Both the position numbers and the translations under genes were made by a program. 57,818 nucleotides of DNA from positions 1 through 57,818 of the forward strand of contig JAUHYI010000020.1 of NCBI GenBank assembly GCA_030426385.1, given 5' to 3'. Shown piece by piece: positions 12,865 through 40,740 of the stretch. Under the pieces are notes generated by a model. The model did not search any database. It saw nothing but the letters and a program-made list of their open reading frames with translations, and was not told where the DNA came from. Every line of letters begins with the position of its first letter. Within the stretch, counting starts at the first letter, position 1. The DNA is from Phycisphaerae bacterium. GTDB taxonomy: Bacteria > Planctomycetota > Phycisphaerae > Phycisphaerales > Phycisphaeraceae.

Positions 12865-12874
12865 AGCGTTCACC

Positions 12875-12888
12875 GTTTTTATAAAAAC
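12875..12888. promoter_or_regulatory. 14-bp palindrome GTTTTTATAAAAAC just upstream of the sialidase-like gene
   Basis: A perfect 14-bp palindrome ends about 10 bases before the preferred start codon at 12864. A second, imperfect palindrome (TTCGT...TTATTC-N6-GAATAA...ACGAA, 12909-12938) lies immediately further upstream. Either could be an operator for the GntR-LacI hybrid regulator encoded by the same locus. The AT-rich core could also serve as a promoter element. No experimental or comparative support is available here. Confidence 0.4.
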
Positions 12889-13149
12889 CAACCAAAAAGA
12901 CGGGGTAATTCGTGATTATTCGTATGTGAATAAACGAAGACAAAGGAAGGATTGATCGCGCGTAAGGAGGGTGGAATGCAAACACATACGAAACATAGCC
13001 GTGCCTGTTATGTATGCGTGTCGCATGGGAATCAACATCTAGTTATCAATGGCGTGCCAACTGCGGCCCATCAAATGCGGTGCATCCCCTGTAAATTTCG
13101 CACATATCATTTCCGCATTCGCAGCGACATTCGCAGTTACGTTCATGGC

Positions 13150-25447: not shown

Positions 25448-28378
25448 CTACCCTTTCTGTTTCTCGCCATCATGATGGGGCAACGCCACCACCTCGGCGC
25501 GACTCATCGCTCCGCCATCCACGCGAATATCAATCTTCGTTCCAGGCCTCGCCATATCTGGATGCACAAACGCCATACCCAACGCATATCCCAACGTCGA
25601 GCGATGCGCCACACTTGTCACGCGGCCGACCATTTTGTGTCGCACTTCATCAATCACCAGATGGCATTCCTCCGGCAACGGCCCGCTATAACCTGCCTCC
25701 CAACGAATACCCACCAACTTCCGCTCCAACGTTTGCTTACGCATCACAGCGATACTACGCTGCCCCACATAAAACGGCTTATCATCCGCCAATGCCCAAC
25801 CGATATCCGCCTCATCAGGATGCGTCAGCGCATCCGTATCATGACTGATTATCAAATGCCCCATTTCCAAACGTAATAATCGCTGCGCCTCCACACCAAA
25901 CGGCCTGATGCCCGCTCCCGCATCCATCAATCTTTCCCATAAACGCAAACCCATATTCGCAGGCACATGCAATTCGTATCCTAATTCACCCACAAAACCC
26001 ACGCGCATCATGATCGCCTGCACCCCTGCCACCATTCCCTCTCGCGTTCCTAAAAATGGAAACGCATCATTTGATAAATCAACATCCGTTAATCCTGCCA
26101 ACACCTCACGACTCTTCGGCCCGGCCAAATTCATCGCCGCATACTGACCTGTTGCATTGATCAACGTCACATCCATACCCCACACCAATGCCCACCGCTG
26201 CATCTCTCGATAGAACGCTGCCACGCCCGAACTGGTCGCGGTCACGTAATACCGATCCTCCGACAATCGCGACACCACCCCATCTTCGATCATCACCCCC
26301 GTCTCATCGAGAGCCACCGCATACCGCTGCTTGCCGATTTTCATGCTGGCAAAATGCCCGGTGTAAAGACGTTCCAAAAACGCACCCGCATCCGCGCCGC
26401 ATATAAACAGTTTCCCCAACGTACTCAGATCGATCAGTCCCAGCGATTTGCGCACATGCATCGCTTCCGACAGGATGCAATCTTCTCGCGACATCGATCC
26501 ATTGCGATAAAACTCCGGACGATACCACGCGCCCGCATGAAACATCACCGCGCCATGTTGCTTATGCCAATCATGCATCGGCGTGTGCCGCATCGGATGA
26601 AACCGCCGACCAGCCAAATGACCAATCGGCACCGGTTGATAGAACGGCCTTGACGTTGTCGTGCCTGTTTCGTTGATCGTTTTTCCGTTCAACTTCGCCA
26701 GGATGCGCACCGAATTTACATTCGCAATTTTCCCCTGACTCGGCCCCATCCCCACCGTGCTATACCTTTTCATCAATTCAATATTGTCGTAACCCTCTTG
26801 ATGCGCATTTACAAAATCCTTCAGATGTAAATCCTCATCAAAATCCACAAAATTTTTCTTGCCCGGGTGCTCAAAAATCGGATACCCGTGACTCATCGCC
26901 ACCTTCGACCGCCCCCCCACATCTTGCCCCTCACCTACCTCACCATTCCCCTCACCCAAACACCCCGCAGCACCCAACCCTGCCCGTTCACCATCACGCA
27001 ATCGATCCGTCCACGCATACACGCCATTCGCACGCCCTGCCACAAACACTGTCGCTGGCACTACGTCTGGCAACAACTGCTCAAGACCATCGTCATACAC
27101 AAAACGCACGCCCGACTGATACAACAAGCCCGCGTTCGGCGTCCAACCCACCGACACCGCCACACCATCACACGCAATTGTCTCACAACGTTTCGCATCC
27201 AACTCACCATCATCATTTAATGGACACACCACCACACCCGCCACTCCTATCCGATCACGCCCCGTCCCACGCGCCTGCGCTTCATAGATCCCACATCCCA
27301 TACGCACCGCCACTCCTGTCGCGCGCACCTGTGCCATCGCATCCGTACTCAGCACATCATCCTCGCGCCGCAGGTCAACCACTGCTTTCACCACAACGCC
27401 TACGTCCAACAGATCCAGCGTCGCTCGATATCCATCATCATTGCCCGCCAACACCACCGCCTGTTCAAATGGCTTGATCGCAAACAAGCGCATCAACCGC
27501 TGCGCCGCCGACGCCAGCATCACACCAGGCAAATCATTGTTCCCAAAAACCGCAGGCTGTTCAATCACACCGGTCGCAAAAACCACCGATTTTGCCCGCA
27601 ATTTCGTTAATTTTTCACCATTGAACAACCCCATCCAATGATCCCCATAATATCCACCTGCCATCGTCGAACACCGCACTTCAATGTTCTCATGCGCCTC
27701 AACCTTCGCCACCATCGCCGCCGCTAGCGGCTCAACGCGACCACCATGATCACCGCCCCCTTGCCACACCAATGACCCACCCAACTTCAAACCTTCATCA
27801 ACCAGCATCACCCGCGCGCCGCCGTCTGCCGCAGCCAATGCCGCAGACATTCCCGAACCTCCGCCACCAATCACCAACACATCGCACCACGCATAATCCT
27901 TGGGCGAATTCGTTGGCGCATTGTTCGCGTTGATCGCGCCTAACCCTGCCACCTTTCGCATCTGCTTTTCATGAAACGGAAACAACCATCGCGGTTTATA
28001 AAAGGCTTTGTAATAAAAACCCACCGGCATAAATCGGCTGAATCGCTCGGTGATGTTCAGGCGATCACGCTTCAACCCGCCGGCTGTATTCACCGCACGC
28101 AGATTCATCCCGCTTTCAAGACTCACCTGATCCCCGCGAATATTCGTACGCACCCCATCGGTCAACATCGCATGCGCATCATGACCAGCCATGCTGTAAC
28201 TCCCACGCGCTCGGTGATACTTGAAACTGCGCCCCACCATACGCATCCCATTCGCATACAGCGCACTGGTAATCACATCGCCCTGGTAACCACGGCACGA
28301 CATGCCTTCAAATGTAAAATTCAACTCACGCGAACGATCGATCCATTCGCCTGCTTGCTTGGGCAATCTGTTATTCAC
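25448..28378 (-). CDS. mgdC: N-methylglutamate dehydrogenase subunit C (sarcosine oxidase alpha-like)
   Basis: About 976 residues. The N-terminal Fer2_4-like domain (RSRELNFTFEGMSCRGYQGDVITSAL) is followed by an FAD/NAD domain (VLVIGGGGSGMSAALAAADGG, about 165-185) and a second dinucleotide motif. The C-terminal aminomethyltransferase (GcvT) domain (about 580-970) binds tetrahydrofolate in sarcosine oxidases, so formaldehyde can leave as methylene-tetrahydrofolate. The GTG at 28378 overlaps the mgdB stop as GTGA and is preferred; an ATG at 28399 has no ribosome site. Residues near 480-500 (GEGNGEVGEGQDVGG) are a low-complexity insertion from C-rich DNA at 26910-26980. With mgdA, B and D it forms the dehydrogenase that oxidises N-methylglutamate to glutamate. 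Confidence 0.87.
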   Translation of the reverse strand: MNNRLPKQAGEWIDRSRELNFTFEGMSCRGYQGDVITSALYANGMRMVGRSFKYHRARGSYSMAGHDAHAMLTDGVRTNIRGDQVSLESGMNLRAVNTAGGLKRDRLNITERFSRFMPVGFYYKAFYKPRWLFPFHEKQMRKVAGLGAINANNAPTNSPKDYAWCDVLVIGGGGSGMSAALAAADGGARVMLVDEGLKLGGSLVWQGGGDHGGRVEPLAAAMVAKVEAHENIEVRCSTMAGGYYGDHWMGLFNGEKLTKLRAKSVVFATGVIEQPAVFGNNDLPGVMLASAAQRLMRLFAIKPFEQAVVLAGNDDGYRATLDLLDVGVVVKAVVDLRREDDVLSTDAMAQVRATGVAVRMGCGIYEAQARGTGRDRIGVAGVVVCPLNDDGELDAKRCETIACDGVAVSVGWTPNAGLLYQSGVRFVYDDGLEQLLPDVVPATVFVAGRANGVYAWTDRLRDGERAGLGAAGCLGEGNGEVGEGQDVGGRSKVAMSHGYPIFEHPGKKNFVDFDEDLHLKDFVNAHQEGYDNIELMKRYSTVGMGPSQGKIANVNSVRILAKLNGKTINETGTTTSRPFYQPVPIGHLAGRRFHPMRHTPMHDWHKQHGAVMFHAGAWYRPEFYRNGSMSREDCILSEAMHVRKSLGLIDLSTLGKLFICGADAGAFLERLYTGHFASMKIGKQRYAVALDETGVMIEDGVVSRLSEDRYYVTATSSGVAAFYREMQRWALVWGMDVTLINATGQYAAMNLAGPKSREVLAGLTDVDLSNDAFPFLGTREGMVAGVQAIMMRVGFVGELGYELHVPANMGLRLWERLMDAGAGIRPFGVEAQRLLRLEMGHLIISHDTDALTHPDEADIGWALADDKPFYVGQRSIAVMRKQTLERKLVGIRWEAGYSGPLPEECHLVIDEVRHKMVGRVTSVAHRSTLGYALGMAFVHPDMARPGTKIDIRVDGGAMSRAEVVALPHHDGEKQKG
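26910..26980. repeat. C-rich low-complexity element inside mgdC
   Basis: CCCCCCCAC and CCCCTCACC-type runs encode GEGNGEVGEGQDVGGRSK between the FAD/NAD domain and the connector to the GcvT domain. The left end (CGACCGCCCCCCC) resembles the start of the 44785 element (CGATCGCCCCCC), both encoding GGRS. Confidence 0.6.
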
Positions 28379-28638
28379 GACGCGTCGTCTCCGTTCCATA
28401 AATATGTGCGAATCACCTGATCACTCACCGTCTCTCGCTCTGCAATAAACCACGTGCCCGAAGCCATGTGGTACCACCACTCCCGCTGCACACCGGGCTC
28501 ACCCGCACGATTGAATACATAATCCGCCCACTGCTCATCACTACACCCCGACCCTTCTGGCATCTCGCGCACCGCACCTCCAAACGAAAACTCTTGAATC
28601 GCTCTGACTCCATTCACTGGACATTTCAATAATTTCAT
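28375..28638 (-). CDS. mgdB: N-methylglutamate dehydrogenase subunit B (sarcosine oxidase delta-like)
   Basis: The start at 28638 (AGGAA eight bases upstream) gives 87 residues; 28644 is an alternative. The delta-subunit pattern is retained: KCP near the N-terminus, EFSFGGAVREMP, WADYVFNR, and EWWYH followed by TWFIAERETVSDQVI. Characterised delta subunits bind zinc through a CPxCG pair, a His and a later Cys. Here only the first Cys (C6) and the His (H57) remain: CPxCG reads CPVNG and the H-x-x-G-C segment has no cysteine. Zinc binding is therefore probably lost or altered. The gene is encoded between mgdA and mgdC and overlaps mgdC by four bases. Confidence 0.8.
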   Translation of the reverse strand: MKLLKCPVNGVRAIQEFSFGGAVREMPEGSGCSDEQWADYVFNRAGEPGVQREWWYHMASGTWFIAERETVSDQVIRTYLWNGDDAS

Positions 28639-28735
28639 AACCATGTTTCCTACACGCTGTACTTCTGTAACCCGCAAGACCAATACTTTTTTGACCACCG
28701 CTTATCGCACACTTGTCTCTTGTGAAATCCTGTCC

Positions 28736-28795
28736 CAATCTGTAATAATCTGTGGACAAACTTCTTCCCTGCGTCTCTGTGGTTAATCTTCTTCC
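28736..28795. repeat. dispersed 'ATCTGTGGAC / GTCTCTGTGGTTAA' repeat in the mgdA-mgdB gap
   Basis: The 162-bp gap between mgdA and mgdB contains ATCTGTAATAATCTGTGGAC followed by GCGTCTCTGTGGTTAATC. The core AATCTGTGGACAAA (28747-28760) recurs as AATCGGTGGACACA at 33357-33370 in the mgsB-mgsC gap. Sequences of this appearance are scattered in intergenic DNA of various bacteria; this is from memory and unverified here. Confidence 0.5.
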
Positions 28796-28800
28796 CACAT

Positions 28801-30072
28801 TCAATGCCCCACCGATGCCGCGCCCTTCTCACCCACCAATCGGAACTTCCCAAAACGCGACAAATTAAACGCCTTGATCAATTCGTGATCCGCATCATTC
28901 GCAATCGTATGCGCCATCGCATAACCACTCACCGGCGTCGCTTTGAATCCCCATGTCCCCCAACCCGCGTCAATATAAAAACCCTTGATCGGCGTCACCC
29001 CCATGATCGGCGAAAAATCAGGCGTCATATCACACAAACCCGCCCACTGCCGCATCACCTTGATGTCACCCAGAAACGGAAATAAATCCATCAGGTGCCC
29101 GCTCAAACCTTCGGCAAATTCCAACGTCGAACGCGTTGACGTTAATTCATAAGGATCCAACGATCCGCCCGTCACCAATTCGCCACGCGACGATTGACTC
29201 ACATACGTATGCAACGATGCCGACACCACGATCGTATTCAACCACGGCTTCAACGGTTCAGTCACCATCGCCTGCAATGGATGAATCGTCAACGGCGTGC
29301 GCAATCCCACCATCCGCTGAATTTGTGGTGTCCATCCCGCGACCGCTGATAAAACTTTCCCCGCCTTGATAAAACCCTTATCCGTATGCACACCCACCAC
29401 ACGCCCCCCCACATTCCCACTCATATTCACACCACCTTCGATTTCAATATCCGTCACCGCGGTCTGTTGAAAAATATCAACACCCTTGCGATCCGCTCCG
29501 CGTGCATACGCCCATGCCACCGCATCATGTCGCGCGATCGCACCGGGCGGATGGAACAACGCACCATGGATCGGTGGTTGATGCCCACCACAATCGAGAT
29601 CAATTTCCGGCACCATCTTCTTGATGAAATCGCGGCCCACCACTTCGCTATCGATCCCCAAATGCTTATTCACCTCCGCCCGCCAACGTTGCGTGCGCAA
29701 TGATGCGGGCGAGTGCGCCATCGTGAAGTGCCCACGCTGCGAATAAAACATATTGAAATCCAGCGTCCGCGACAGATCCTGAAATAGCTCCACACTTTTC
29801 TGATAGAAACGCGCGCCGTCTTCCGTCAGATAGTTCGAACGCACAATTGCTGTATTGCGTCCGGTTCCCCCCCCGCCCAGATATCCCTTTTCAATCACCG
29901 CCACATTCGTGATGCCACATTCATTCGCCAGGTAATAGGCGGCTGCCAACCCGTGGCCACCGCCACCGATGATCACCACGTCATACGCATCGCGTGGTTG
30001 TTCCACCTTTCGAAACATGCGCGGTTCCGAATACTTCTTCGACAATCCAAATTTAATCAGTCCAAATGGCAT
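28801..30072 (-). CDS. mgdA: N-methylglutamate dehydrogenase subunit A (sarcosine oxidase beta-like, FAD/FMN)
   Basis: A 423-residue DAO-fold flavoprotein. The ADP-binding motif VVIIGGGGHGLAAAYYLA lies at 32-49, followed by GGGGTGRNTAIVRSNYL, which is characteristic of the beta subunit of heterotetrameric sarcosine oxidase. The PGAIARHDAVAWAYARGA segment and the C-terminal GWGTWGFKATP (flavin and substrate region) are well conserved. This subunit carries out amine oxidation. Here the expected substrate is N-methyl-L-glutamate because mgsABC and gmaS precede it in the same order as in known methylamine-pathway operons. A short low-complexity patch (VNMSGNVGGRVVG) comes from C-rich DNA around 29395-29435. 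Confidence 0.87.
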   Translation of the reverse strand: MPFGLIKFGLSKKYSEPRMFRKVEQPRDAYDVVIIGGGGHGLAAAYYLANECGITNVAVIEKGYLGGGGTGRNTAIVRSNYLTEDGARFYQKSVELFQDLSRTLDFNMFYSQRGHFTMAHSPASLRTQRWRAEVNKHLGIDSEVVGRDFIKKMVPEIDLDCGGHQPPIHGALFHPPGAIARHDAVAWAYARGADRKGVDIFQQTAVTDIEIEGGVNMSGNVGGRVVGVHTDKGFIKAGKVLSAVAGWTPQIQRMVGLRTPLTIHPLQAMVTEPLKPWLNTIVVSASLHTYVSQSSRGELVTGGSLDPYELTSTRSTLEFAEGLSGHLMDLFPFLGDIKVMRQWAGLCDMTPDFSPIMGVTPIKGFYIDAGWGTWGFKATPVSGYAMAHTIANDADHELIKAFNLSRFGKFRLVGEKGAASVGH

Positions 30073-30312
30073 ACATCGTTCTCATTCAGTAACAGTTTTA
30101 TTTCCTACACACATACAGCCGTCTGCGCCTTCGCGCAAACTATTTTCACAAGCGCACATCAAAACGCGCTCTGCCTATCAAACACTTGTTTAAATATGAC
30201 TGCGTGCCATCACCCGGCATGGATACCGCTTAGGTGAACCCGCTAAAACGATCGCACGTTGTTCCCATATCATTCGCATGCCGTTTGGTCCTGAAACTGC
30301 AGATCACAATCA

Positions 30313-31671
30313 TCAAAAACTCGTTAGATACTGATCAATTTCCCAATCCGTCACTTGCTTGTCATACGCTTCCCATTCCGAAATTTTCAACGCCACAAAC
30401 TCATCTGCGATCGGTCCCAACGCGCCCATGATCACCTCATCCTCACGCAATTCGTTCACTGATTCCCACAACGTTTGCGGTAATATTCCAATCCCCTTGC
30501 CACGAATTTCCGCCAGGGTCCGCTCATACATATTGCCCAGGTTCGGCTCGCCCGGATCAATTTCGTTTTTAATTCCATCCAAACCTGCCGCCAGATACGC
30601 CGCGATGGCTAGATAAGGATTCGTGCCCGCCGAGATTGTTCGGTCCTCAAAATGCCCAGGCCCCGCCGTCCGAATCATCTGCGTTCGGTTGTTGTCACCA
30701 TACGTGATAAACGCAGGCACCCAACTGAACCCCGACCGGCTCGACGTCAAACCCTCACCGATTTTGATGCGCTTGTAACAATTCACCGTCGGACATGTCA
30801 CCGCACACAGCGCCCGCGCATGCTTGATCACACCACCAATAAAATGGTACGCCAATTTCGAACACGCCAACCCACGTGAATCATCCTTGTCGACAAACAC
30901 ATTATCACCCGTCTTCGCATCCGCCAGGTGATAATGCATATGCAACCCACTGCCCGTCCGATCGCTGAACGGCTTGGGCATATGCGTCGCGATTGCCCCG
31001 TATTTTTTTGCAATCTGGGACGTTGCCATCTTGAAAAATATCACGCGGTCTGCCGTCGTCAGCGCATCGGTGTAGTTGAAATTAATTTCGAACTGACCGT
31101 TCGCGTCCTCATGATCGCATTGATAAACGCCCCACCCCAACTCATTCAACGATGACGTCAGATCCTGTAAATACGACATCGCTGGCGCCATCGATCGATA
31201 GTCATAACACGGCTTGGCCAATGACTCGACACCATCCGGATCCCATGGCTTTATCCCACCGCACGACGTTCGCTCCACGAGAAAATGCTCCGGCTCCATC
31301 CCGATATTAAACACATAGCCCAGCTTTGCCACTTCGCCCAACATGCGTTTCAAATTCGTCCGCGGACAATAACCATAGGCCTCATCGTCTACAAATAAGT
31401 CCGCCGCAAACCTTGCGGTATTCGCACGCCACGGAATCGGTGTGTAACTAGCCACATCAATACGCGCCATCATGTCATGCGAATGCGGCCCCTGCCCCAC
31501 ACCACGCACCGCCGCCCCCGCAAAACCCGCACCCTCATCAATCGCATCATCAAAACTCGACGCGGGCATCATCTTCACCTTTGCAGAGCCCGTAATATCC
31601 ACAAACTGTGCCAACAAAAACTCAACCCCGTCTTCTTCCATCCGCTTCTTGATCTGTTCCCGCGCCGTCAT
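30313..31671 (-). CDS. gmaS: gamma-glutamylmethylamide synthetase (glutamine synthetase family)
   Basis: About 452 residues; the second of two ATGs after GGAGG is preferred. It is a glutamine synthetase homologue of the GlnT/GmaS branch, with the GS beta-grasp N-terminus (VEFLLAQFVDITGSAKVK). The catalytic core shows the metal-binding MEPEHFLVE, CDHEDANGQFEINF, GSGLHMHYHL and the ATP-region TCPTVNCYKR segments, and NRTQMIRTAG follows. GmaS makes gamma-glutamylmethylamide from glutamate, methylamine and ATP. Paralogous GlnT could make glutamine instead; placement between mgsC and mgdA favours GmaS. The gap upstream contains a C-rich element. Confidence 0.87.
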   Translation of the reverse strand: MTAREQIKKRMEEDGVEFLLAQFVDITGSAKVKMMPASSFDDAIDEGAGFAGAAVRGVGQGPHSHDMMARIDVASYTPIPWRANTARFAADLFVDDEAYGYCPRTNLKRMLGEVAKLGYVFNIGMEPEHFLVERTSCGGIKPWDPDGVESLAKPCYDYRSMAPAMSYLQDLTSSLNELGWGVYQCDHEDANGQFEINFNYTDALTTADRVIFFKMATSQIAKKYGAIATHMPKPFSDRTGSGLHMHYHLADAKTGDNVFVDKDDSRGLACSKLAYHFIGGVIKHARALCAVTCPTVNCYKRIKIGEGLTSSRSGFSWVPAFITYGDNNRTQMIRTAGPGHFEDRTISAGTNPYLAIAAYLAAGLDGIKNEIDPGEPNLGNMYERTLAEIRGKGIGILPQTLWESVNELREDEVIMGALGPIADEFVALKISEWEAYDKQVTDWEIDQYLTSF

Positions 31672-31727
31672 CATGACCTCCAGTCCCATGTGTCATGCTT
31701 CATTTCAGTCTTCCAAACATCTCACAA

Positions 31728-31825
31728 TACACCCCCCCACATTTTCCCCCGCACTACTCCCCACATTTTCCCTCGCACTTCTTCCCACATTTCACCGGCA
31801 CTTTCCCCGCGTTTCTCCAGTCGCT
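31728..31825. repeat. C-rich element in the mgsC-gmaS gap
   Basis: Three near-copies of CCCACATTTTCCC (around 31736-31750, 31760-31775 and 31785-31800) alternate with GCACTTC-type spacers. The 222-bp gap between mgsC and gmaS has no visible gene. The motif is the same as that found inside coding regions of this operon. Confidence 0.65.
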
Positions 31826-31893
31826 TGCAGCTTCGCGAGCCATCTCCACCATCTGATTCACCGCTTGAGTTTCTGTGCCTCTATTCCTCGTTG

Positions 31894-33228
31894 TTATATT
31901 TTTCCCGGCACCCAATTCGTCCCTGCCAATGGCAATCCCGACATCGCGGCCGACTCGATCGTCAAGGCCACCAAGTCTTCTGGCTCCAAATGATGTACGT
32001 GACTTTTTCCGCATGCCCGCGCTATCGTCTGACATTCCAACGTCAACACCCGCAAGTAATTTGCCAAACGCTTGCCACCAACCTCTGGGTCTAATCGCTT
32101 CGACAATTCTTCGTCTTGTGTCGTGATTCCCGCCGGGTCACGGCCTTCATGCCAATCATCATAAAACCCCGCACGACTTCCCAGCTTTGCATACTCTGCA
32201 TCCAGTGTCGGACTGTTATCGCCCAGCGCAATCAGCGCTGCTGACCCGATCGATACCGCATCCGCGCCCATCGCCAGCGCCTTAGCCACATCTGCGCCAG
32301 ACCTGATTCCGCCCGACACGATCAGCTGCACCTTCCGATGCATATCCATATCCTGCAGCGCTTCAACCGCTTGTCGCAAAGCTGGCAATGTTGGGATTCC
32401 CACATGTTCGATGAACACATCCTGCGTCGCACCGGTTCCGCCTTGCATGCCATCGAGCACGACCACATCCGCGCCAGCCTTCACTGCTAACTGCACATCG
32501 TAATACGTCCGCGTGGCACCAATCTTGATATAGATCGGCTTTTCCCAGTCCGTGATCTCACGCAACTCAATCATCTTGATCGCCAGATCATCAGGCCCCG
32601 TCCAATCCGGATGTCGACACGCCGACCGCTGATCAATACCTTTTGGCAGTGTCCGCATCCCGGCCACGCGATCTGAAATTTTTTGCCCCAATAACATCCC
32701 GCCGCCACCAGGCTTGGCCCCTTGCCCCAACACCACCTCAATCGCATCGGCCTTACGCAAGTCATCCGGATTCATCCCATACCGCGACGGCAACAACTGA
32801 TACACCAACATCGACGAATGCCCACGCTCCTCCGGCGTCATCCCACCATCGCCCGTCGTCGTACTCGTACCCACCGTCGACGCCCCGCGTCCCAACGATT
32901 CCTTCGCCTGCGCCGATAGCGAGCCAAAACTCATCCCCGCAATCGTGATCGGAATTTTCAAATGCAATGGCTTCTTCGCGAAACGATCACCCAGCACCAC
33001 TTCCGTCGAACATTTTTCACGATAGCCTTCCAACGGATACCGCGACATACTCGCGCCCAGAAACACCAGATCATCGAAATGTGGCACCCGTCGTTTCGCA
33101 CCGTGCCCACGAATATCATAAATCCCCGTTGCCGCCGCCCGCTGAATCTCCGCAATCATATGGCGATCGAACGTTGCCGACTCTTTCAACCCTCCCGCAT
33201 CTGGATTCAAACCCGTGTCATTTTTCAT
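31894..33228 (-). CDS. mgsC: N-methylglutamate synthase subunit C (glutamate synthase FMN-domain homologue)
   Basis: With the start at 33228 (AAAGGG upstream) the protein has 444 residues; a longer frame to 33390 runs through the repeat DNA upstream and is unlikely. It is the FMN-binding TIM-barrel domain of glutamate synthase: PITIAGMSFGSLSAQAKESLGRGA, GEGGMTPEERG-like TTTGDGGMTPEERG, QGAKPGGGGMLLG, VVLDGMQGGTGATQDVF, and the phosphate-binding VSGGIRSGADVAKALAMGADAVSIG. In the pathway, MgsABC transfers the methylamino group to form N-methylglutamate. The order mgsA-mgsB-mgsC-gmaS on one strand matches characterised operons. Confidence 0.88.
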   Translation of the reverse strand: MKNDTGLNPDAGGLKESATFDRHMIAEIQRAAATGIYDIRGHGAKRRVPHFDDLVFLGASMSRYPLEGYREKCSTEVVLGDRFAKKPLHLKIPITIAGMSFGSLSAQAKESLGRGASTVGTSTTTGDGGMTPEERGHSSMLVYQLLPSRYGMNPDDLRKADAIEVVLGQGAKPGGGGMLLGQKISDRVAGMRTLPKGIDQRSACRHPDWTGPDDLAIKMIELREITDWEKPIYIKIGATRTYYDVQLAVKAGADVVVLDGMQGGTGATQDVFIEHVGIPTLPALRQAVEALQDMDMHRKVQLIVSGGIRSGADVAKALAMGADAVSIGSAALIALGDNSPTLDAEYAKLGSRAGFYDDWHEGRDPAGITTQDEELSKRLDPEVGGKRLANYLRVLTLECQTIARACGKSHVHHLEPEDLVALTIESAAMSGLPLAGTNWVPGKI

Positions 33229-33235
33229 ATGCAAT

Positions 33236-33370
33236 CCAAACCCTTTTCTATTCCCCTCTACCTCGCACTCACACCCTCCGACTTCTCTCCTCACCTGCCC
33301 CTGCCTCTTCACTCTTCTTTTTCTCACTGGCTTAAAAAACCTGTGCCTATCTGCGAAATCGGTGGACACA
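33236..33370. repeat. C/T-rich and CTGTGGAC-type repeats in the mgsB-mgsC gap
   Basis: The 158-bp gap contains C/T-rich runs (TTCCCCTCTACC, CTCACCTGCCCCTGCC) and then CCTGTGCCTATCTGCGAAATC with GGTGGACACA (33336-33370), related to the repeat at 28747-28760. No gene is visible in this stretch. It could be transcribed as an untranslated spacer within the operon. Confidence 0.5.
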
Positions 33371-33386
33371 ACTCGCCCATCTGACC

Positions 33387-34088
33387 TCAATAATTCCCTG
33401 CCTTATCCGCATGAAAATGGTACCACTGCCGCGCCGACCCATATCGTTTGAACGCTGTCACATCCGCTTCCATCCCCGCGGCCTTCAGCAATCCCGACAG
33501 ATGCTCGACATGCTCGTCGCGCATCGGCTTCTCCACACAATCCGCACCCAGGCTTTTCACCTGACCACGCACATAAATTTTCGCTTCGTATAACGAGTCA
33601 CCCAATGCCTCGCCCGCATCACCACACACTACCAGTGTCCCCGCTTGCGCCATAAAACAACTCATGTGCCCCACCGAACCCCCCACCACGATATCCCCAC
33701 CTTTCAATGAAATGCCGCAGCGTGCTGACGCATCCCCTTCGATCACCAACAATCCACCGTGGGCCGTCGCTCCCGCACATTGGCTGGCTTGACCTTTCAC
33801 ACGAACCACTCCCGACATCATGTTTTCCGCAAGCCCGACACCTGCGTTGCCATGCACAGTCACCATCGCATGTTGATTCATCCCCGCGCAGTAATACCCT
33901 GCATGCCCTGCGATATCGATCGTCGCTCCTACTTTCATCCCACACGCCAGCGCATGCGCCCCTTTCGAATTCTCAACCCGCCACGGCACATCACAATCGT
34001 CAACCGCCAAATCATGCAACCGCTGATTCAACGCCCGCACCCCTCCCCCTCTCACATTTCCCTCGTTTTCCATATCAAATACATGCAT
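33387..34088 (-). CDS. mgsB: N-methylglutamate synthase subunit B (glutamate synthase GXGXG domain)
   Basis: A 233-residue single-domain protein. It is the right-handed beta-helix GXGXG domain found at the C-terminus of large glutamate synthases: GHAGYYCAGMNQHAMVTVHGNAGVGLAENMMSG (given here in part), GHMSCFMAQAGTLVVCGDAGEALGDSLYEAKIYVRG. In the three-subunit N-methylglutamate synthase this domain is a separate structural subunit. Residues 7-18 (ENEGNVRGGGVR) come from a short C-rich tract at 34039-34066. It sits 91 bases after mgsA and 158 bases before mgsC. Confidence 0.87.
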   Translation of the reverse strand: MHVFDMENEGNVRGGGVRALNQRLHDLAVDDCDVPWRVENSKGAHALACGMKVGATIDIAGHAGYYCAGMNQHAMVTVHGNAGVGLAENMMSGVVRVKGQASQCAGATAHGGLLVIEGDASARCGISLKGGDIVVGGSVGHMSCFMAQAGTLVVCGDAGEALGDSLYEAKIYVRGQVKSLGADCVEKPMRDEHVEHLSGLLKAAGMEADVTAFKRYGSARQWYHFHADKAGNY

Positions 34089-34105
34089 AATCAGTAATCC
34101 CTGCC

Positions 34106-34199
34106 CCCATGCTTTCCCCCTTATTTCCCTTCCCCACTTTTTACTTATTACTTTTAACTTTTAACTTTTAACTTTTCCCTCACGCCCCCCCACGCCCCC
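34106..34199. repeat. C-rich runs and CTTTTAA heptamer repeat at the mgsA-mgsB junction
   Basis: The mgsA-mgsB gap holds CCCCTTATTTCCC-type runs and then 3.7 copies of the heptamer CTTTTAA (34151-34176), followed by more C-runs that reach into the last codons of mgsA (34180-34199). Heptamer tandem repeats of this kind can change length by slippage. No gene is visible in the gap. Confidence 0.65.
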
Positions 34200-35196
34200 A
34201 CGTGTAGACAATCCCCGGCTCCGGCTCCCACAATCGTGCCGTCTCAATCCCTGGTAATTCCGCCAACGCGCGATACTCCGATCCGATTGCCACATAGTCA
34301 TCCGTCTCCGCCATCACCGCAGGCTTGCATGCAATCGGATCGCGCAACACCGCAAAACCATCTGCCGTCCCCACCGCAAACGTATAAAATCCATCCAGAT
34401 CAATCAGCCCATGTTCCAATGCTTCCTGCAATGTATCGCCTTCGCGCATGCGCCACGTCAGATACCCCGCGGCCACTTCCGTATCGTTGTCCGTGCGAAA
34501 CTCAATGCCATACCGCTGTAATCGCCGACGCAATCGATTGTGATTGCTCAGGCTTCCGTTATGCACCAGACATAAATCCAAACCCGTGGAAAATGGATGC
34601 GATCCTTCAGTCGTTACCGCGCTCTCCGTGGCCATTCGCGTGTGCCCGATCACATGCGTCCCCTTCATCCCGCGCACATTGAATCGATCCACAATCTCGC
34701 GGGGCAATCCCACCTCTTTCAATATCTCGATGCTTCGCCCAATACTCATGATCCGCGCATCGGGCCAATTGGTTCTCAAGTGTTCGCGCAGCATCGCTTC
34801 GTCGGCTTTCACCTTGATCACTGCATACGTCTGATTCACCAACAACGACACGTCACTGATAAATGTCTTCGACAAATCTTCGGTCAGTTGTTCCCAGTTC
34901 ACCGCCACCCCCACATTGCCCCCCCCACTTGCCCCCCCACTTGCCACCTCACTTACCCTCCCACTTGCTCTCCCATTTATCCGTCCGCCAACCGCTTGCG
35001 GCTTAGCGATCTGTTCACTTCCCACATCCCGCAACGTCACTTTGATCTCACCCGCGCTCGCTTCATCTCCATAAATCGCAAACCCCGCACTATCAGGCCC
35101 ACGGTCACACATCGAATCCAGCATCGGCGCAAACATCTTTCCGATCACCGGTATCAACGCGTCATTCTTCAGATACAAACCGACTATGCCACACAT
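34180..35196 (-). CDS. mgsA: N-methylglutamate synthase subunit A (class II glutamine amidotransferase)
   Basis: The ATG at 35196 follows CAGGAG and places the catalytic Cys directly after Met (MCGIVGLYL), as required for Ntn amidotransferases, so the longer frame to 35223 is rejected. The 338-residue product has the class II signature HTRMATES, VHNGSLSNHNRLRRRL and DTEVAAGYL. It corresponds to the glutaminase-like domain of glutamate synthase. It is the first gene of the methylamine operon. About 25 residues (GGRINGRASGRVSEVASGG onward, roughly 70-98) are low complexity, encoded by C-rich DNA at 34906-34990, and break the fold before NWEQLTEDLSKTFISD. Confidence 0.88.
   Translation of the reverse strand: MCGIVGLYLKNDALIPVIGKMFAPMLDSMCDRGPDSAGFAIYGDEASAGEIKVTLRDVGSEQIAKPQAVGGRINGRASGRVSEVASGGASGGGNVGVAVNWEQLTEDLSKTFISDVSLLVNQTYAVIKVKADEAMLREHLRTNWPDARIMSIGRSIEILKEVGLPREIVDRFNVRGMKGTHVIGHTRMATESAVTTEGSHPFSTGLDLCLVHNGSLSNHNRLRRRLQRYGIEFRTDNDTEVAAGYLTWRMREGDTLQEALEHGLIDLDGFYTFAVGTADGFAVLRDPIACKPAVMAETDDYVAIGSEYRALAELPGIETARLWEPEPGIVYTWGRGGA
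34906..34990. repeat. C-rich low-complexity element inside mgsA
   Basis: Repeats of CCCCCCACTTGCC alternate with CACCTCACTTACCC across about 80 bases. On the coding strand it gives Gly/Ala/Ser/Arg-rich residues in frame. It closely resembles the element in the UxaA-like gene (24080-24180, CCCCCCCACTTGTCC). Confidence 0.7.
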
Positions 35197-35593
35197 ACCA
35201 GACACTCCTGCCCGCCCCCACACACATACTTACTTGCTTACTTACACATACACCTCACCACGTTTGCCTCTATCCTGCCTCCACCAACCCCCACCAGCCC
35301 CACCACCAGCCTCCCCGCCAGCCCTGCAACTTGCCCAATCCCAAAGCGCACCACACAACCGCCACGGCCCAGGCCATTCGCTCATTAATGTTCAATTTTT
35401 ATACACATGCCGCGACTCAGATCACCACACGCACGACCCTGCGACTATACCAACCCCATCACCATAATGTCAAACAATATTCTTATTTTTACGAATTTTT
35501 TCCACGTTATCCCAAAACCCGTATTTTTCCATCTCACGCAATAGCAAACCTCGCTACTTGACAAGACTTATCGATTGTTCAACAATTGAACAC
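35197..35593. other. divergent control region between the methylamine operon and the Fis-type regulator
   Basis: A 397-bp spacer with no gene. It should contain the promoter of mgsA on the minus strand and that of the regulator on the plus strand. C-rich sequence continues upstream of mgsA to about 35340. A promoter-like TTGACA with an overlapping inverted repeat lies at the right end (35558-35592). Confidence 0.5.
35558..35592 (+). promoter_or_regulatory. promoter-like element with overlapping inverted repeat, possible leaderless start
   Basis: TTGACA (35558-35563) is followed after 17 bp by AACAAT (35581-35586, four of six to TATAAT). An inverted repeat TGTTCAA-CAA-TTGAACA (35576-35592) covers the -10 box and ends one base before the ATG at 35594. 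Transcription would start about at the start codon, implying a leaderless mRNA. The inverted repeat is well placed for autorepression. Confidence 0.5.
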
Positions 35594-36169
35594 ATGGACA
35601 TCATGCATTACAACGACGAAGAAAAGCACCTTCACCAATATCTCGCCGAACTCGGCCACGACAACACCATCATTGCCGCCGACGCCGACCCTTTCGAATA
35701 CGCCATCAATCAACCTTTCGATGCTGCGTACATCGGCCTGCATCCGCATGGGCTCGAACTCATTCGCCTTCTTCATCGGCGCAACCGCGAATGCCTGGTC
35801 ACCATCGTCACTGCCGACATCAACGCGCGCTCTGCAGCCGAAGCCATGCAGCTCGGTGCATTCGATTACCTTTTCACCCCTCTTGAAAAACATGACATCG
35901 AGCGCACCGTCTTAATGATGACGCGCGAATATCAAAACCAACGCGAGCGCCACAACCTGGCCGGCCATATTGATAACTTCGATCTCACAACCTCACTCGA
36001 TGCGAACGACTCGCCCCCCACCACCTTGCGCGATATCGTTGCGGCCGTTGAACGCCGCGCCATCGAACGTGCACTGACCCAACACAACGGCAACATTGCA
36101 CGCGCCGCACGACAACTCAACATCAGCCGCACCACTCTCTACTCCAAAATGCAACCGCCCAACCCTTAA
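35594..36169 (+). CDS. response-regulator-like protein with degenerate receiver and Fis-type HTH
   Basis: A 191-residue protein. Residues 1-115 follow a receiver fold (DNTIIAADADPFEYAI, HGLELIRLL, VTIVTADINARSAAEAMQLGAFDYLFTPLEK), but the acidic pair reads ND, the phosphoacceptor Asp is replaced by Gly (YIGLHP) and the KP lysine by Thr (FTPLE). Phosphorylation is therefore unlikely. Residues of about 150-188 are a Fis-type helix-turn-helix (ERRAIERALTQHNGNIARAA, then LNISRTTLYSKM), as in NtrC proteins but with no AAA+ domain between. It is divergent from the methylamine operon and may regulate it; the effector is unknown. A longer frame starting at TTG 35558 is less likely because it begins within the promoter-like element. 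Confidence 0.78.
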   Translation: MDIMHYNDEEKHLHQYLAELGHDNTIIAADADPFEYAINQPFDAAYIGLHPHGLELIRLLHRRNRECLVTIVTADINARSAAEAMQLGAFDYLFTPLEKHDIERTVLMMTREYQNQRERHNLAGHIDNFDLTTSLDANDSPPTTLRDIVAAVERRAIERALTQHNGNIARAARQLNISRTTLYSKMQPPNP

Positions 36170-36204: not shown

Positions 36205-36233
36205 CGGCCTGTCGTATTGACTACGACAGGCCG
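36205..36233. terminator. bidirectional rho-independent terminator
   Basis: A perfect 12-bp stem (CGGCCTGTCGTA with TACGACAGGCCG, 5-base loop) lies between two convergent genes. Nine A residues precede it (a T-run for the minus-strand chemoreceptor gene) and CCTCTTTT follows it (for the plus-strand regulator gene), so it can stop both transcripts. Confidence 0.88.
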
Positions 36234-36296: not shown

Positions 36297-39200
36297 TCAC
36301 AATCGGAACTGCCCGATCAATGCGCTCAACTGTTCCGCTTTCGCCGACAGTGACTGCGCTGCCTGCGCCGCTTGCGTCGTACCTTCACTGGATTGACGTG
36401 TCACCGTAGCGATCGATTCAACATTACGGCTTACTTCTTCGCTGGTGGCGGACTGCTCTTCAGCGGCCGCCGCAATCGTCTGGATCATGCCCGCCACTTC
36501 CCGGGCTGACGTTACAATTCGATTCAGACTTTCACCGGCTTCGGTTGCCTTACGCACACCCACATCAACCTGGTCGGTGCCGACACTCATTTGTTGCACC
36601 GCCTGGCCTGTTTCATTCTGAATCGCCTTGATCGATTGGCCAATTTCTTCCGTGGCCTGTGTCGTTCGGTCCGCTAATTTACGAACCTCATCGGCGACCA
36701 CTGCGAACCCACGACCATGTTCACCCGCTCGCGCGGCTTCGATCGCTGCATTCAATGCCAACAAGTTGGTCTGATCCGCAATGTCATTAATCACTTCGAT
36801 GATTTCACCGATTTGATCACCGCGTTTGCCTAATTCTTCAACGCACGCCGCGCCAGCTTTCACCGCTTCACTGATCGCCTCCATCCCTGCGATCGTATCT
36901 TTCACGACGTCGCCACCTTCACCCGCAACACGGCCTGATTCTTCCGCATTACGTGCGGCATCCGCGCTCTTACGTGCTACCTCAACCACGCTCGCTGACA
37001 TCTCTTCAACGGCAGCACTGATCTGCGTTACTTGCGATGTCTGCTCGCTCATGCCCATCGCCATTTGATCGCTCGATGCTGCGATTTCTGTCGCGGCTGC
37101 AGCCACTTCATTCGAGGCTTCAGCGACTGTCACCATGACGCCATGAATCTTCACCACGAACAGGTTAAACCATTTACCGAGACTGCCCAGTTCATCACGA
37201 CGCGATTCATCAACGCGCTTCGTGAGGTCGCCTTCGCCTTCGGCAATGTCTTTCAGGTTCACCACCATCGCTTCAACAGGATTGATAATCGAACGCGCAA
37301 TCGACACGCTCAACACCAGTCCAACCACAACGGCTGTCAACAGCATCACCAGCTCAACCCATTGGACTGAACTTTCCGTGCTGTGCATTTTATCACTGTA
37401 AAACTCGCTTAATCCTTCCGCAATCGCTTCAACCTGCGCCACATTTTGATACGACTGGGCCGCGGCAAAACCAACCTGAAGATTGTCATTGATCAGAAGA
37501 CTCGCTTCATGGGTATAGGATTCAATAATCCCGACCACTTCCTGGATCTGTTCCATTTCCCGCGCCGCCTCAGCCGGGCTAGTCGCCGCGGCGTCAATCA
37601 GTTGCCTGACTTTTCCGAGACTCAAGGCCAGTTCACCTAACTGTTCTTCCATCGACGCTACGTGTCGGTATTGACCGTCCAACATGTATTCATTCTGATG
37701 ACTAAAAACTTTGAGCCAGTGAATCTCTGACTCTTCCAACATCATGATCAGTTCGGCGACTTGCGCGATTTTGTTCACATTGGGACTTGATACAGCTTCC
37801 AATTGGTGCAACTGCTCACGGTGATGGTGAATAATCGTTTCCAATGTCTGCCCGATCTTTTCACCAGCGTGACCACTTGTTTCTTTGATTTCTTCGATCT
37901 CGTGGAATTTCTCCGAAACCGTTTCAAACTTCACCATATACGTACCAATGAGTTGCTCTAATTCGCTGATCGCTTCATTGGCCTGCACATTTGATTCACC
38001 TGCATGCAGCTCACGCAGCTTTGCCGTAAGCTCGGTCGACAGGTCTAGATGTTGTTCAACACTCTCGTCACCACGTTGCTTGTCTTCAATGCCATACAAC
38101 AGGAATTCGTTTTCAAGCCGCCCCATCTCGGTAACCATCTGTTCCACTTGCGAAACCTGCTGTGTCTGCTTAACCACACCATCCACCACGCTTCCGTAAT
38201 ACCATGCCACACCCCAGATACCAATCAGCAGTGCGACCAGACAACCGTGACTGGCATACAACTTCACGCCGATCTTGACGTGATTGAGCGCACCGGTCCA
38301 CGTAAGTCCTATTACTAGCGCCAACAACAACACGCCGAGCACGATGACGACCATCGCCAGTTTGCTGCCGTGAGCATAGTCAAGCGAAACCGTGTCATAT
38401 GAACTTGAATTCCATGCTTGCTTCGTTCGACCATAAATGTCGGCAAACTTTTTCTGGTCAATCAAAGTACCATTACCTGCAACCGTTGCACCATGACCAG
38501 CGGCTGCGTGAGATGCTGTACCGTGCCCAGCATTCGCGGCCACTTTCCCATGACCACTGCCATGGCCTGCATTTGCCGAGGCATGATGATTGCCGACAGG
38601 CGTCTTTGCCGCGACGCCTGGCCCTGCGGCCGATGCCGGGAATGATGCCAGAATCGCAGCACTCTTGGTCTGCGACAGCCATTCAACCTCACCGGTGCCG
38701 ACGTTGTAAATCGCGCCGACGACCTTGACCAAACCACGCCGTACTAACTCGCGCGTTTGTGGACTTTCGCGAAACAGATCTTCGATGGATTGCCACACGT
38801 TCGCTTCAATGCCCGCATCGATCAGCGCCGTGCCTTGCGCATGCGGATGATCATGCATCGCTTTTTTAACGGCCGGTGCAATGTTGTCGACCAAACGTGG
38901 AATGTTACGCTCCAACGCGTGGCCCTTGCCTTGCACGGCATGCGTCACCGCAGTCACTGCCCCACATTGCGAATGCCCCAACACGACCAGCACCGGCGTA
39001 TTCACGTGGGCCAAACCATATTCGATCGAACCGATCTCATCGATATCACACACATTGCCCGCCACGCGAACCACAAACAGATCCATCACGCCAGCGTCGA
39101 ACACACGTTCGACTGGAATGCGCGAATCCGAACACGTGATCACAGTCGCGTACGCATGATCGCCTTGATTTTCGCTACCAGCCTGGGCCAATCGCGTCGC

Positions 39201-40253
39201 ATCCGTATGAGGATGTTCTGAGACACCACTTACAAATCGACTGTTGCCGGCCTGCAAATTCGCAATGGCCTGATCGGCTGACGGCTTGGCGGTAAATCGC
39301 TCAATGTTTAACGGCGCATGCTCCACCTGATTGCTCTGCGCTACTTTTTCAATTGGCTCGTCGCCTGTCGCAAACACGTTACGCGCCCGCGTTGGGTCCG
39401 ATTCAACCTTTGCCAGAATGGCGTCTGATTTACTTTCATCAAGCCATTGAATCTGGCCACTACCCACGTCATAAAGCGCACCCACAACCTTGACAAATCC
39501 GCGTTTCACCAGTTCTCGTGTTGCGGGACTTTCACTAAACAGGTCTTCGATCGATTGCCACACATTGGATTCAATCCCTGCCTGCACCAGCGCATCACCC
39601 TCGGCATGCGGATGATCATGCATGGCCCGATTCACTGCCGGTGCAATGTTGTCCACCAGCTTGGGAATGTTGCGCTCCAGCGCATGACCCTTACCTTGCA
39701 ACGCATGCGTCACGGCAGTTACTGCGCCACATTGCGTATGACCCAGCACGACCAGCACAGGGGTGTTCACATGAGCCAAGCCATATTCGATTGAGCCGAT
39801 CTCGTCGGTATCACACACATTGCCAGCCACGCGAATGTTAAACAAATCCATCACACCCGCATCGAACACACGCTCCACAGGCACGCGTGAATCCGAACAG
39901 GTAATCACGGTGGCCAGCGCGTAGTCGCTCTGGTTTTCGCTGCCCGCTTTTAATAGGCGTTTTTTGTCCGTATGAGGATGCGACGATGTGCCACTGATGA
40001 AACGGGAATTGCCCGCCTTCAATATCTCAACCACTTCAGCAGGCGACGGTTTAAACTTAAACCGTTCTGTATTTAGTTTGGCATGGCTCTGCGCGGCGGA
40101 AGATGCCGCAGCCACGTGATCCAACGCTACAGGCTGAGCGTGGACTTCGCCAGCATGGCTGTTCGACCCAGCCTGCAACTCACTCACGCCAAGGAACCCC
40201 ACCATGACAGTGGCCAAAAACAACACAAAAAATCGTCGAGTTACGGCTCGCAT
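36297..40253 (-). CDS. chemoreceptor with two tandem periplasmic beta-carbonic anhydrase domains (CA-CA-TM-TM-sensor-TM-HAMP-MCP)
   Basis: A 1318-residue protein with a near-perfect ribosome site (AGGAGGT) before the ATG at 40253. A signal peptide (about 1-28) is followed by two beta-carbonic anhydrase domains, roughly 65-285 and 315-535. Each keeps the zinc ligands and catalytic dyad: CSDSR (C119, D121, R123; C374, D376, R378) and GHxQCGAV (H172, C175; H427, C430). A His/Gly/Ala-rich linker (about 554-594), TM1 (632-655), a short loop, TM2 (667-690), a helical sensor region (about 695-960), TM3 (about 966-990), HAMP and an MCP signalling domain (about 1060-1318, with the tip [20 protein letters not shown]) follow. 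The topology places both enzyme domains in the periplasm. Expected role: sensing CO2/bicarbonate or local pH for taxis or other signalling. The two enzyme domains are near-duplicates. Confidence 0.9.
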
Positions 40254-40370
40254 GGCCTACCTCCTGCATCCCGCGTTGGGATGATGGTGTAAAAACGTTT
40301 CCCGATCGTGATGCGACGTGGCATTCTCGACCTGCCTGAGAAACGCAATAGGAAACAAGAATTGTTCATT

Positions 40371-40399: not shown

Positions 40400-40635
40400 G
40401 CGACTTGACAACCAAATTTCATCGCTACCAGCTTGGCCCATAACCTCACGACCGATAACCATGATCCAACGCATCGCATCACCAAAGCGCGACCTTTAGC
40501 TTTCCCATTTCAACCGCGGCGTCTATCTCCACGAAACAAAGCGTCTTCCACCTATGAAACGGGACGCTGGCGCGTCGCCGGCTAAACATAAACACTACGA
40601 TTGGATTGGTTGCGACCTATCCATAAAAAGAAAAA

Positions 40636-40659
40636 GCCCACGCTCGTTTGAACGTGGGC
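40636..40659 (-). terminator. rho-independent terminator of the GH4 gene
   Basis: GCCCACG (40636-40642) pairs with CGTGGGC (40653-40659) around a 10-base loop. On the minus strand the hairpin is followed by TTTTTCTTTTT. It lies about 80 bases beyond the GH4 stop codon and separates it from the downstream chemoreceptor gene. Confidence 0.8.
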
Positions 40660-40740
40660 CTGGGTGTGTTGTTATAGGTATATCGTTGACACAGGCGCCA
40701 ACAATCGCGCCTTGCGATTAGCAATTAGCGCGTTCTGAAA

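Follow-up and report, generated by a model that had tools for sequence, protein, structure and literature searches.

Architecture of the receptor gene

The window analysed here is a 57,818-nucleotide stretch from a Phycisphaerae bacterium of the family Phycisphaeraceae (Planctomycetota), covering positions 1 to 57,818 of contig JAUHYI010000020.1 (GenBank assembly GCA_030426385.1, forward strand). Its minus strand carries, at 36297-40253, a gene of 1318 uninterrupted codons beginning with ATG. The gene encodes a methyl-accepting chemotaxis protein (MCP) with two β-carbonic anhydrase (CA) domains at its N-terminal end. In order, the product consists of a signal peptide, CA, CA, a linker, a first transmembrane segment (TM1), a short loop bearing Lys and His, TM2, a periplasmic helical domain, TM3, HAMP and the MCP signalling domain. 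These parts are located as follows.

36297..40253, minus strand: CA-CA-TM-TM-HBM-like-TM-HAMP-MCP receptor, 1318 amino acids (open reading frame and Pfam)
40259..40265 (read 40265-40259), minus strand: Shine-Dalgarno sequence AGGAGGT, directly 5' of the ATG (read from the sequence)
40170..40253, minus strand: signal peptide, about residues 1-28, with a presumed end (hydropathy and sequence)
39450..39914, minus strand: CA domain 1, Pro_CA match to residues 114-268, with C119, D121, R123, H172 and C175
38685..39149, minus strand: CA domain 2, Pro_CA match, with C374, D376, R378, H427 and C430
38361..38618, minus strand: linker rich in His, Gly and Ala, residues 546-631; predicted local distance difference test (pLDDT) below 50 up to about residue 594
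38304..38360, minus strand: TM1, about residues 632-650, anchor of the CA module (hydropathy)
38184..38273, minus strand: TM2, about residues 661-690 (hydropathy)
37353..38183, minus strand: periplasmic six-helix HBM-like sensor, residues 691-967
37296..37352, minus strand: TM3, about residues 968-986 (hydropathy)
37146..37301, minus strand: HAMP, residues 985-1036, after the last transmembrane segment (Pfam, E 1.1e-9)
36399..36950, minus strand: MCP signalling domain, residues 1102-1285 (Pfam)

Pfam matches Pro_CA to two stretches of the protein (E 8.7e-72), with single-domain scores of 132.3 and 131.4 bits against a cut-off of 25.7. MCPsignal is matched at E 4.2e-51 (173.6 bits, cut-off 34.6), and the 32-residue block at the tip of the MCP hairpin is conserved. 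Together with motifs and hydropathy, these matches confirm the protein that an original prediction, made from the letters alone, had described: 1318 residues with a signal peptide, two CA domains with complete motifs, three transmembrane segments, a helical sensor, HAMP and an MCP tip. That prediction also placed both CA domains outside the cytoplasm, and the Lys- and His-bearing loop between TM1 and TM2 fits this topology.

The GC content of third codon positions stays between 0.52 and 0.59 in 150-codon blocks along the gene. The same two-CA fusion is present in another genus of the family (genome G011), where identity is 57% over residues 67-1317. An assembly artefact or frameshift was rejected on this even composition and on the occurrence of the same fusion in other genomes, including G011.

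Carbonic anhydrase domains

Both CA domains of the window receptor retain the CxDxR...HxxC pattern, in which we take the Cys-His-Cys residues to be zinc ligands and Asp-Arg to be the catalytic dyad. We infer from these complete motifs that both domains are catalytically active. NCBIfam assigns the protein to the CA family PRK15219 with 261.9 bits against a cut-off of 221, a score that sums both domains. β-CAs of the PRK15219 type share the CSDSR and GHxQC motifs with the window domains but are neither doubled nor fused to a chemoreceptor. Identity to relatives encoded as solo CA genes is 61-76% (second, distant CA genes at 29-34% were left out), and in PDB sequence searches CA domain 2 matches a mycobacterial carbonic anhydrase best (2a5v, 1ym3).

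The NCBIfam and PDB assignments argue against a sulfur-gas receptor, in which the CA-like domain would act on another substrate such as carbonyl sulfide or carbon disulfide. Hydrolases of both compounds with the β-CA fold exist, and record titles place many carriers of related CAs in Desulfobacterota. Even so, we regard this explanation as very improbable.

Type II (HICA-like) enzymes have a non-catalytic bicarbonate site that is, as we understand it, marked by a Trp located three positions N-terminal to the first Cys ligand (HICA Trp39). This allosteric site was considered and rejected for the fusion proteins; the Trp is absent, and the position holds Val in 14 of 17 fusion CA domains and Ile in the other three.

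The tandem β-CA of Porphyridium purpureum (1ddz) resembles the window receptor in having two β-CA repeats per chain. It is also the top Foldseek match by E-value, over 528 columns. The Porphyridium protein bears no receptor. The pseudo-dimer packing of its repeats is not reproduced by the window model (TMt 0.29), which was built with few tandem rows and, with a predicted template modelling score (pTM) of 0.42, does not fix the packing of the two CA domains.

Sensor domain and receptor body

Residues 661-987, modelled with AlphaFold (6 rows, pLDDT 86.8, pTM 0.64), form six helices. The model's top PDB matches are to the McpS ligand-binding domain with malate or succinate (2yfa/2yfb; E 7.3e-6 to 2.0e-5, TMt 0.74-0.79), followed by PilJ and TorS. 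The helical domain is thus predicted to have the six-helix, two-module HBM fold of McpS, a likeness seen in the model only. Among related sensors, 6 of 10 rows match HBM at E values up to 1. No Pfam family scores above its cut-off for the window domain, and the sensor profile found no sensor relative among PDB sequences.

The arrangement of a transmembrane segment, a six-helix periplasmic domain, a second transmembrane segment, HAMP and MCP is shared with HBM chemoreceptors of the McpS type (McpS, McpK, McpQ and CtpL). Unlike these, the window receptor and its kin carry an extra signal peptide, one or two CA domains, a linker and a transmembrane segment in front. An 11-residue stretch at the start of TM2 resembles, by eye, the N-termini of ordinary MCPs at three loci (L014, L036 and L057). 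The unit from signal peptide to TM1 therefore seems to have been added N-terminally to a complete MCP.

A model of 986 residues (15 rows, pLDDT 73.9, pTM 0.42) gives residues 542-594 a pLDDT below 50, and the linker is predicted to be disordered. This stretch makes mechanical signalling from CA to the sensor improbable. The CA module also sits on its own transmembrane segment, ahead of an HBM-like receptor that is complete without it. Input is therefore more probably received by the helical domain, with CA as a tethered enzyme. This favours a catalytic front end over a mechanical ligand-binding role for CA, and the original description of CA as the receptor's input is not supported as worded.

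A flexible tether would also permit docking. In an arrangement like TorT/TorS or PstS/CtpL but within one chain, the CA domains could act as a tethered co-receptor whose ligand- or metal-bound state is read by contact with the HBM-like domain. The sensor model matches the TorS sensor from TorS-TorT complexes, and CtpL, itself an HBM receptor, recognizes loaded binding protein PstS, as the excerpted text of PMC5126104 reports. The joint model shows no reliable contact between CA and sensor (pTM 0.42), and the uniform retention of catalytic motifs described below goes beyond what docking needs. We consider docking of this kind unlikely.

Recurrence of CA-MCP fusions

Fusions of CA to MCP recur well outside the window. 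A pattern scan of genome contigs produced 66 stretches and 41 relatives, and CA and MCP lie in one frame at eight of these 41 loci (L023, L024, L025, L026, L033, L035, L052 and L057). Further cases are the window receptor itself, those of genomes G011, G026 and G028, L157 as a further copy in the L026 genome, L156 (genome G525) and L166 (genome G180). In all, 15 one-frame receptors from 14 genomes carry 18 CA domains. A search for the domain order beyond the host, as first proposed for other Planctomycetota, thus yielded 14 additional receptors, some of them from that phylum, and the architecture is not unique to the host genome. The eight titled loci come from seven metagenome-assembled genomes (MAGs) and one isolate, Desulfopila aestuarii DSM 18488, and their carriers belong to Planctomycetota, Thermodesulfobacteriota, Sumerlaeota and Fibrobacterota.

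The common layout of the 15 receptors is CA before a transmembrane segment, then sensor, transmembrane segment and MCP. L023 has its N-terminus cut by a contig end, L024 reaches a contig end, and the signal peptide of L024 and TM2 of L156 fall under the hydropathy threshold. CxDxR and HxxC are kept in 18/18 fusion CA domains, including that of L166.

Fusion counts are lower bounds, with frames of 600 amino acids or more opened among the listed matches. A fusion was found in at least four of 61 genomes in the search of relatives (G000, G011, G026 and G028; ten candidates scored per genome). It was found in at least three of 392 sampled genomes of the window's phylum (G000, G026 and G180; CA query matches, 213) and in at least two of 395 from the Desulfopila phylum (G428, Desulfopila itself, and G525; CA query matches, 171). 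The CA-MCP fusion is rare.

Apart from the fusions and L158 (see below), the opened frames contained CA with 11 or more hydrophobic segments, tandem CA without MCP, or CA without an MCP match. Frames with 11 or more hydrophobic segments proved to be SulP-CA proteins where Pfam was run. Such SulP transporter-CA fusions (L067, L068, L159, L161 and L162) also join a membrane protein to CA of the same Pfam family. Unlike the window receptor, they are transporters with a C-terminal CA and no signalling part. A tandem β-CA without an MCP part (L082 1219-3126, plus strand; two Pro_CA stretches in a 636-amino-acid frame) sits in G180, the genome of L166. The 1876-amino-acid frame of L163 (4874-10501, minus strand) carries CA at its C-terminal end and matches no other Pfam family.

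Whether homologues might instead be two separate genes had been raised at the outset. This is so at one locus, L036, where about 27 nucleotides separate the CA and MCP frames, whereas 14 receptors besides that of the window are one-frame fusions. In a Planctomycetota MAG (L027 6764-10347), CA, sensor and MCP parts lie in successive different frames, which represents either a broken fusion gene or a sequencing error.

Origins of fusion and doubling

The fused state was followed on a tree of 91 CA domains, of which 17 are fused; the tree counts L027 as solo, its MCP part being in another frame, and does not include L166. The fused label is clustered, requiring 7 changes compared with a mean of 15.8 after shuffling. 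Starred branches force five of these changes, and a single change suffices in 0% of 200 bootstrap trees. Bootstrap values have not settled, some branches are long, and three of the changes may represent one gain plus two losses. A single origin of the fusion is not supported by this tree or by BLAST with the CA domain of L166, and fusion seems to have arisen more than once.

L166 (386-3223, plus strand), a distant CA-MCP fusion, comes from the window's phylum but from a different family. Identity between its CA and other fused CAs is 34-39%; the domain has the motif forms CADSR and HEKC and is followed by a linker that also bears His (6/74). An independent origin is probable for this fusion, whose layout is the same, because the 30 best matches of its CA are solo or other CAs and the first fusion CA ranks 31st. 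This find raised our confidence in the inorganic-carbon reading presented below very slightly, and lowered by as little that in the rival in which CA is merely anchored.

The two CA copies of the window receptor group together on the tree (99/96), as do those of L066, weakly (98/61), and those of Desulfopila, the latter with a solo neighbour (100/98). Because copies group within receptors, either CA doubling happened more than once or copies have been homogenized. Between copies of one protein, dN is lower than dS, with dN and dS of 0.147 and 1.90 for the window receptor, 0.178 and 0.66 for L066, and 0.075 and 1.67 for L057, with dS near saturation in two of the three pairs.

Chemotaxis context

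By Pfam, che clusters surround four of the 15 receptors, which come from three genomes. L057 is accompanied by CheA, CheW, CheR, CheD and CheB, and L026 by CheA, CheD, CheB and CheR. L157, in the same genome as L026, has CheW, CheR, CheB and CheD as neighbours; L025 has Hpt and CheA parts, CheW, CheR and CheB. Neighbours of other fusions were viewed by eye only, and L023 is too short. L036, with its separate CA gene, shows CheW, an MCP, the CA gene and a second MCP in a row.

The host genome is 94% complete. It has one CheA, in a set of the order CheR-CheA-CheX-CheY-FapA-CheB, and six flagellin-N matches. MCPs as a class signal to CheA/CheW and undergo methylation by CheR/CheB. Its MCPs number three: the window receptor, one with a Tll0287-like sensor and one with a NIT sensor. 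The only Pro_CA matches in the genome are the two domains of the window receptor, and no α-CA was found in a search that did not extend to γ-CA.

The MCP gene directly upstream of the L026 receptor (7777-9657, plus strand) encodes a 4HB domain and a zinc-binding CZB match that falls below the cut-off. That match fits a receptor for metal, in which the zinc enzyme and His-rich linker would report or buffer zinc for the sensor. The linker is richer in His than the remaining protein in 12 of the 15 fusions and also in L155, a related receptor without CA. By the boundaries used, the linkers of L065, L033 and L052 are not enriched in His, and His-rich linkers may only aid zinc loading of the enzyme. 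We think a metal receptor quite unlikely.

A candidate receptor for inorganic carbon

The CA module, comprising signal peptide, one or two β-CA domains, flexible linker and its own transmembrane segment, may act in the periplasm as an enzyme on a tether, joined to an HBM-like MCP that is itself complete. There it would rapidly interconvert CO2 with bicarbonate and a proton beside the HBM-like domain, which would bind the product anion or respond to local pH. Signalling would run through TM3 and HAMP to the MCP tip, and from there to CheA and the flagella, and catalysis would speed or sharpen sensing. Repeated fusion and the che-cluster context of some relatives favour such a transmembrane chemoreceptor for inorganic carbon (CO2, bicarbonate or pH). 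We advance it tentatively as the preferred explanation, at slightly short of an even chance. The CO2/bicarbonate sensor of the original prediction gains from the same two observations, while the identity of the signal as CO2, bicarbonate or pH continues to be a matter of inference.

HBM domains bind small organic acids in the account excerpted from PMC5126104, and the PilJ domain of McpN, structurally similar to HBM, is reported to bind nitrate (PMC6381276, in excerpt). Nitrate is a planar oxyanion; by analogy, bicarbonate would be a chemically reasonable ligand for an HBM-like domain. Bicarbonate or pH taxis, like the role proposed here, has been reported for TlpA and TlpD of Helicobacter pylori (PMC5245789, in excerpt).

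Several observations weigh against this proposal. The excerpted text of PMC5245789 leaves direct sensing by TlpA in bicarbonate taxis unsettled and mentions no CA domain in TlpA or TlpD, unlike the window receptor. The window gene is not adjacent to che genes. Its sensor shares only 10% identity with the McpS type in the structural alignment and scores 18.7 bits with Pfam HBM (PF16591), below the cut-off of 29.8. Pfam finds HAMP, a usual though not universal part of MCPs, in 10 of the 15 fusions and not in L024, L026, L035, L052 or L157. Sensors also vary: L064, L065 and L156 have below-cut-off HBM matches, L033 has a below-cut-off TarH match, and the domains of L035, L052, L157 and L166 are shorter. 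This diversity weakens the idea of a single specialized bicarbonate pocket, and it also counts against a docking co-receptor.

Relatives without CA point the same way. L155 (7998-10433, minus strand; genome G035, same family) lacks CA while having a signal peptide, a His-rich linker, a sensor and MCP; there is no CA gene in its 16.7 kb, and G035 has a weak CA match elsewhere. In L158 (3593-6241, minus strand; genome G508) the CA core with its zinc ligands has been lost in frame, with sensor and MCP kept. Sensor and MCP parts thus persist without CA, which speaks against a strict need for the enzyme.

The existence of L155 is also compatible with a passenger enzyme. The fusion would then merely anchor a periplasmic CA at the membrane or receptor array to supply CO2 or bicarbonate, and the MCP would sense an organic acid or other ligand, as characterized HBM receptors mostly do (PMC5126104, in excerpt). 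In keeping with a supply role, the host search found no other β-CA and no α-CA, within the scope given above. Solo relatives of the CA are common, with 33 solo genes against eight fused loci in a set biased by the query. Repeated fusion to MCPs and presence in che clusters would be odd for a plain anchor. Five of the 33 solo CA genes, moreover, lie 160 bp or less from an MCP gene (a raw count without background rate; L027 left out, many flanks short). On balance a mere anchor seems improbable.

If the inorganic-carbon reading is right, these proteins may form a class of enzyme-coupled chemoreceptors, present in several groups through more than one independent fusion, that sense CO2 via CA tethered to a helical-bundle receptor. 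Catalysis at the receptor would convert a gas that is hard to bind into products, an anion and a proton, within reach of a standard sensor, and the enzyme would set the speed and gain of CO2 taxis. We offer this wider view as a possibility rather below even likelihood. An open-access literature search, with most subscription papers outside its scope, found no description of a CA-MCP fusion or CA-bearing chemoreceptor. To our knowledge, no chemoreceptor has an apparently intact enzyme on its outer input side. The parts are known families; their combination, recurrence and place in che clusters appear to be new.

CO2 is a gas without an obvious binding group. If catalysis matters, Cys mutants, natural CA-less relatives and versions with one and two CA domains would provide a direct genetic handle on bacterial CO2 sensing. 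The cultured carrier Desulfopila aestuarii DSM 18488 makes the CA-MCP reading testable.

Flanking signals and neighbouring genes

The receptor gene lies between two terminator-like hairpins and probably forms a transcript of its own.

36205..36233, plus strand: terminator-like hairpin separating the receptor gene from the convergent regulator gene
40634..40661, minus strand: terminator-like hairpin 3' of the upstream glycoside hydrolase family 4 (GH4) gene

The region contains 10 terminator-like sites compared with 4.9 expected, and these two have the longest stems. A scan for flagellar sigma-28 promoters gave nothing above chance (7 matches, 8.26 expected), and one for sigma-70 promoters gave 1 site with 3.1 expected. 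The upstream neighbour encodes a GH4 glycosidase. The convergent downstream gene (35558-36169, plus strand) encodes a partial receiver domain and a Fis-type helix-turn-helix by Pfam.

Elsewhere in the window, a 1739-residue frame (7672-12891, minus strand) has BNR-like repeats in Pfam and no NCBIfam match. A cluster at 25448-35223 on the minus strand encodes class II GATase, a GXGXG protein, a glutamate-synthase-like flavin mononucleotide protein, a type III glutamine synthetase above its cut-off, and SoxB- and SoxA-like proteins below theirs. It resembles a methylamine pathway of the N-methylglutamate type.

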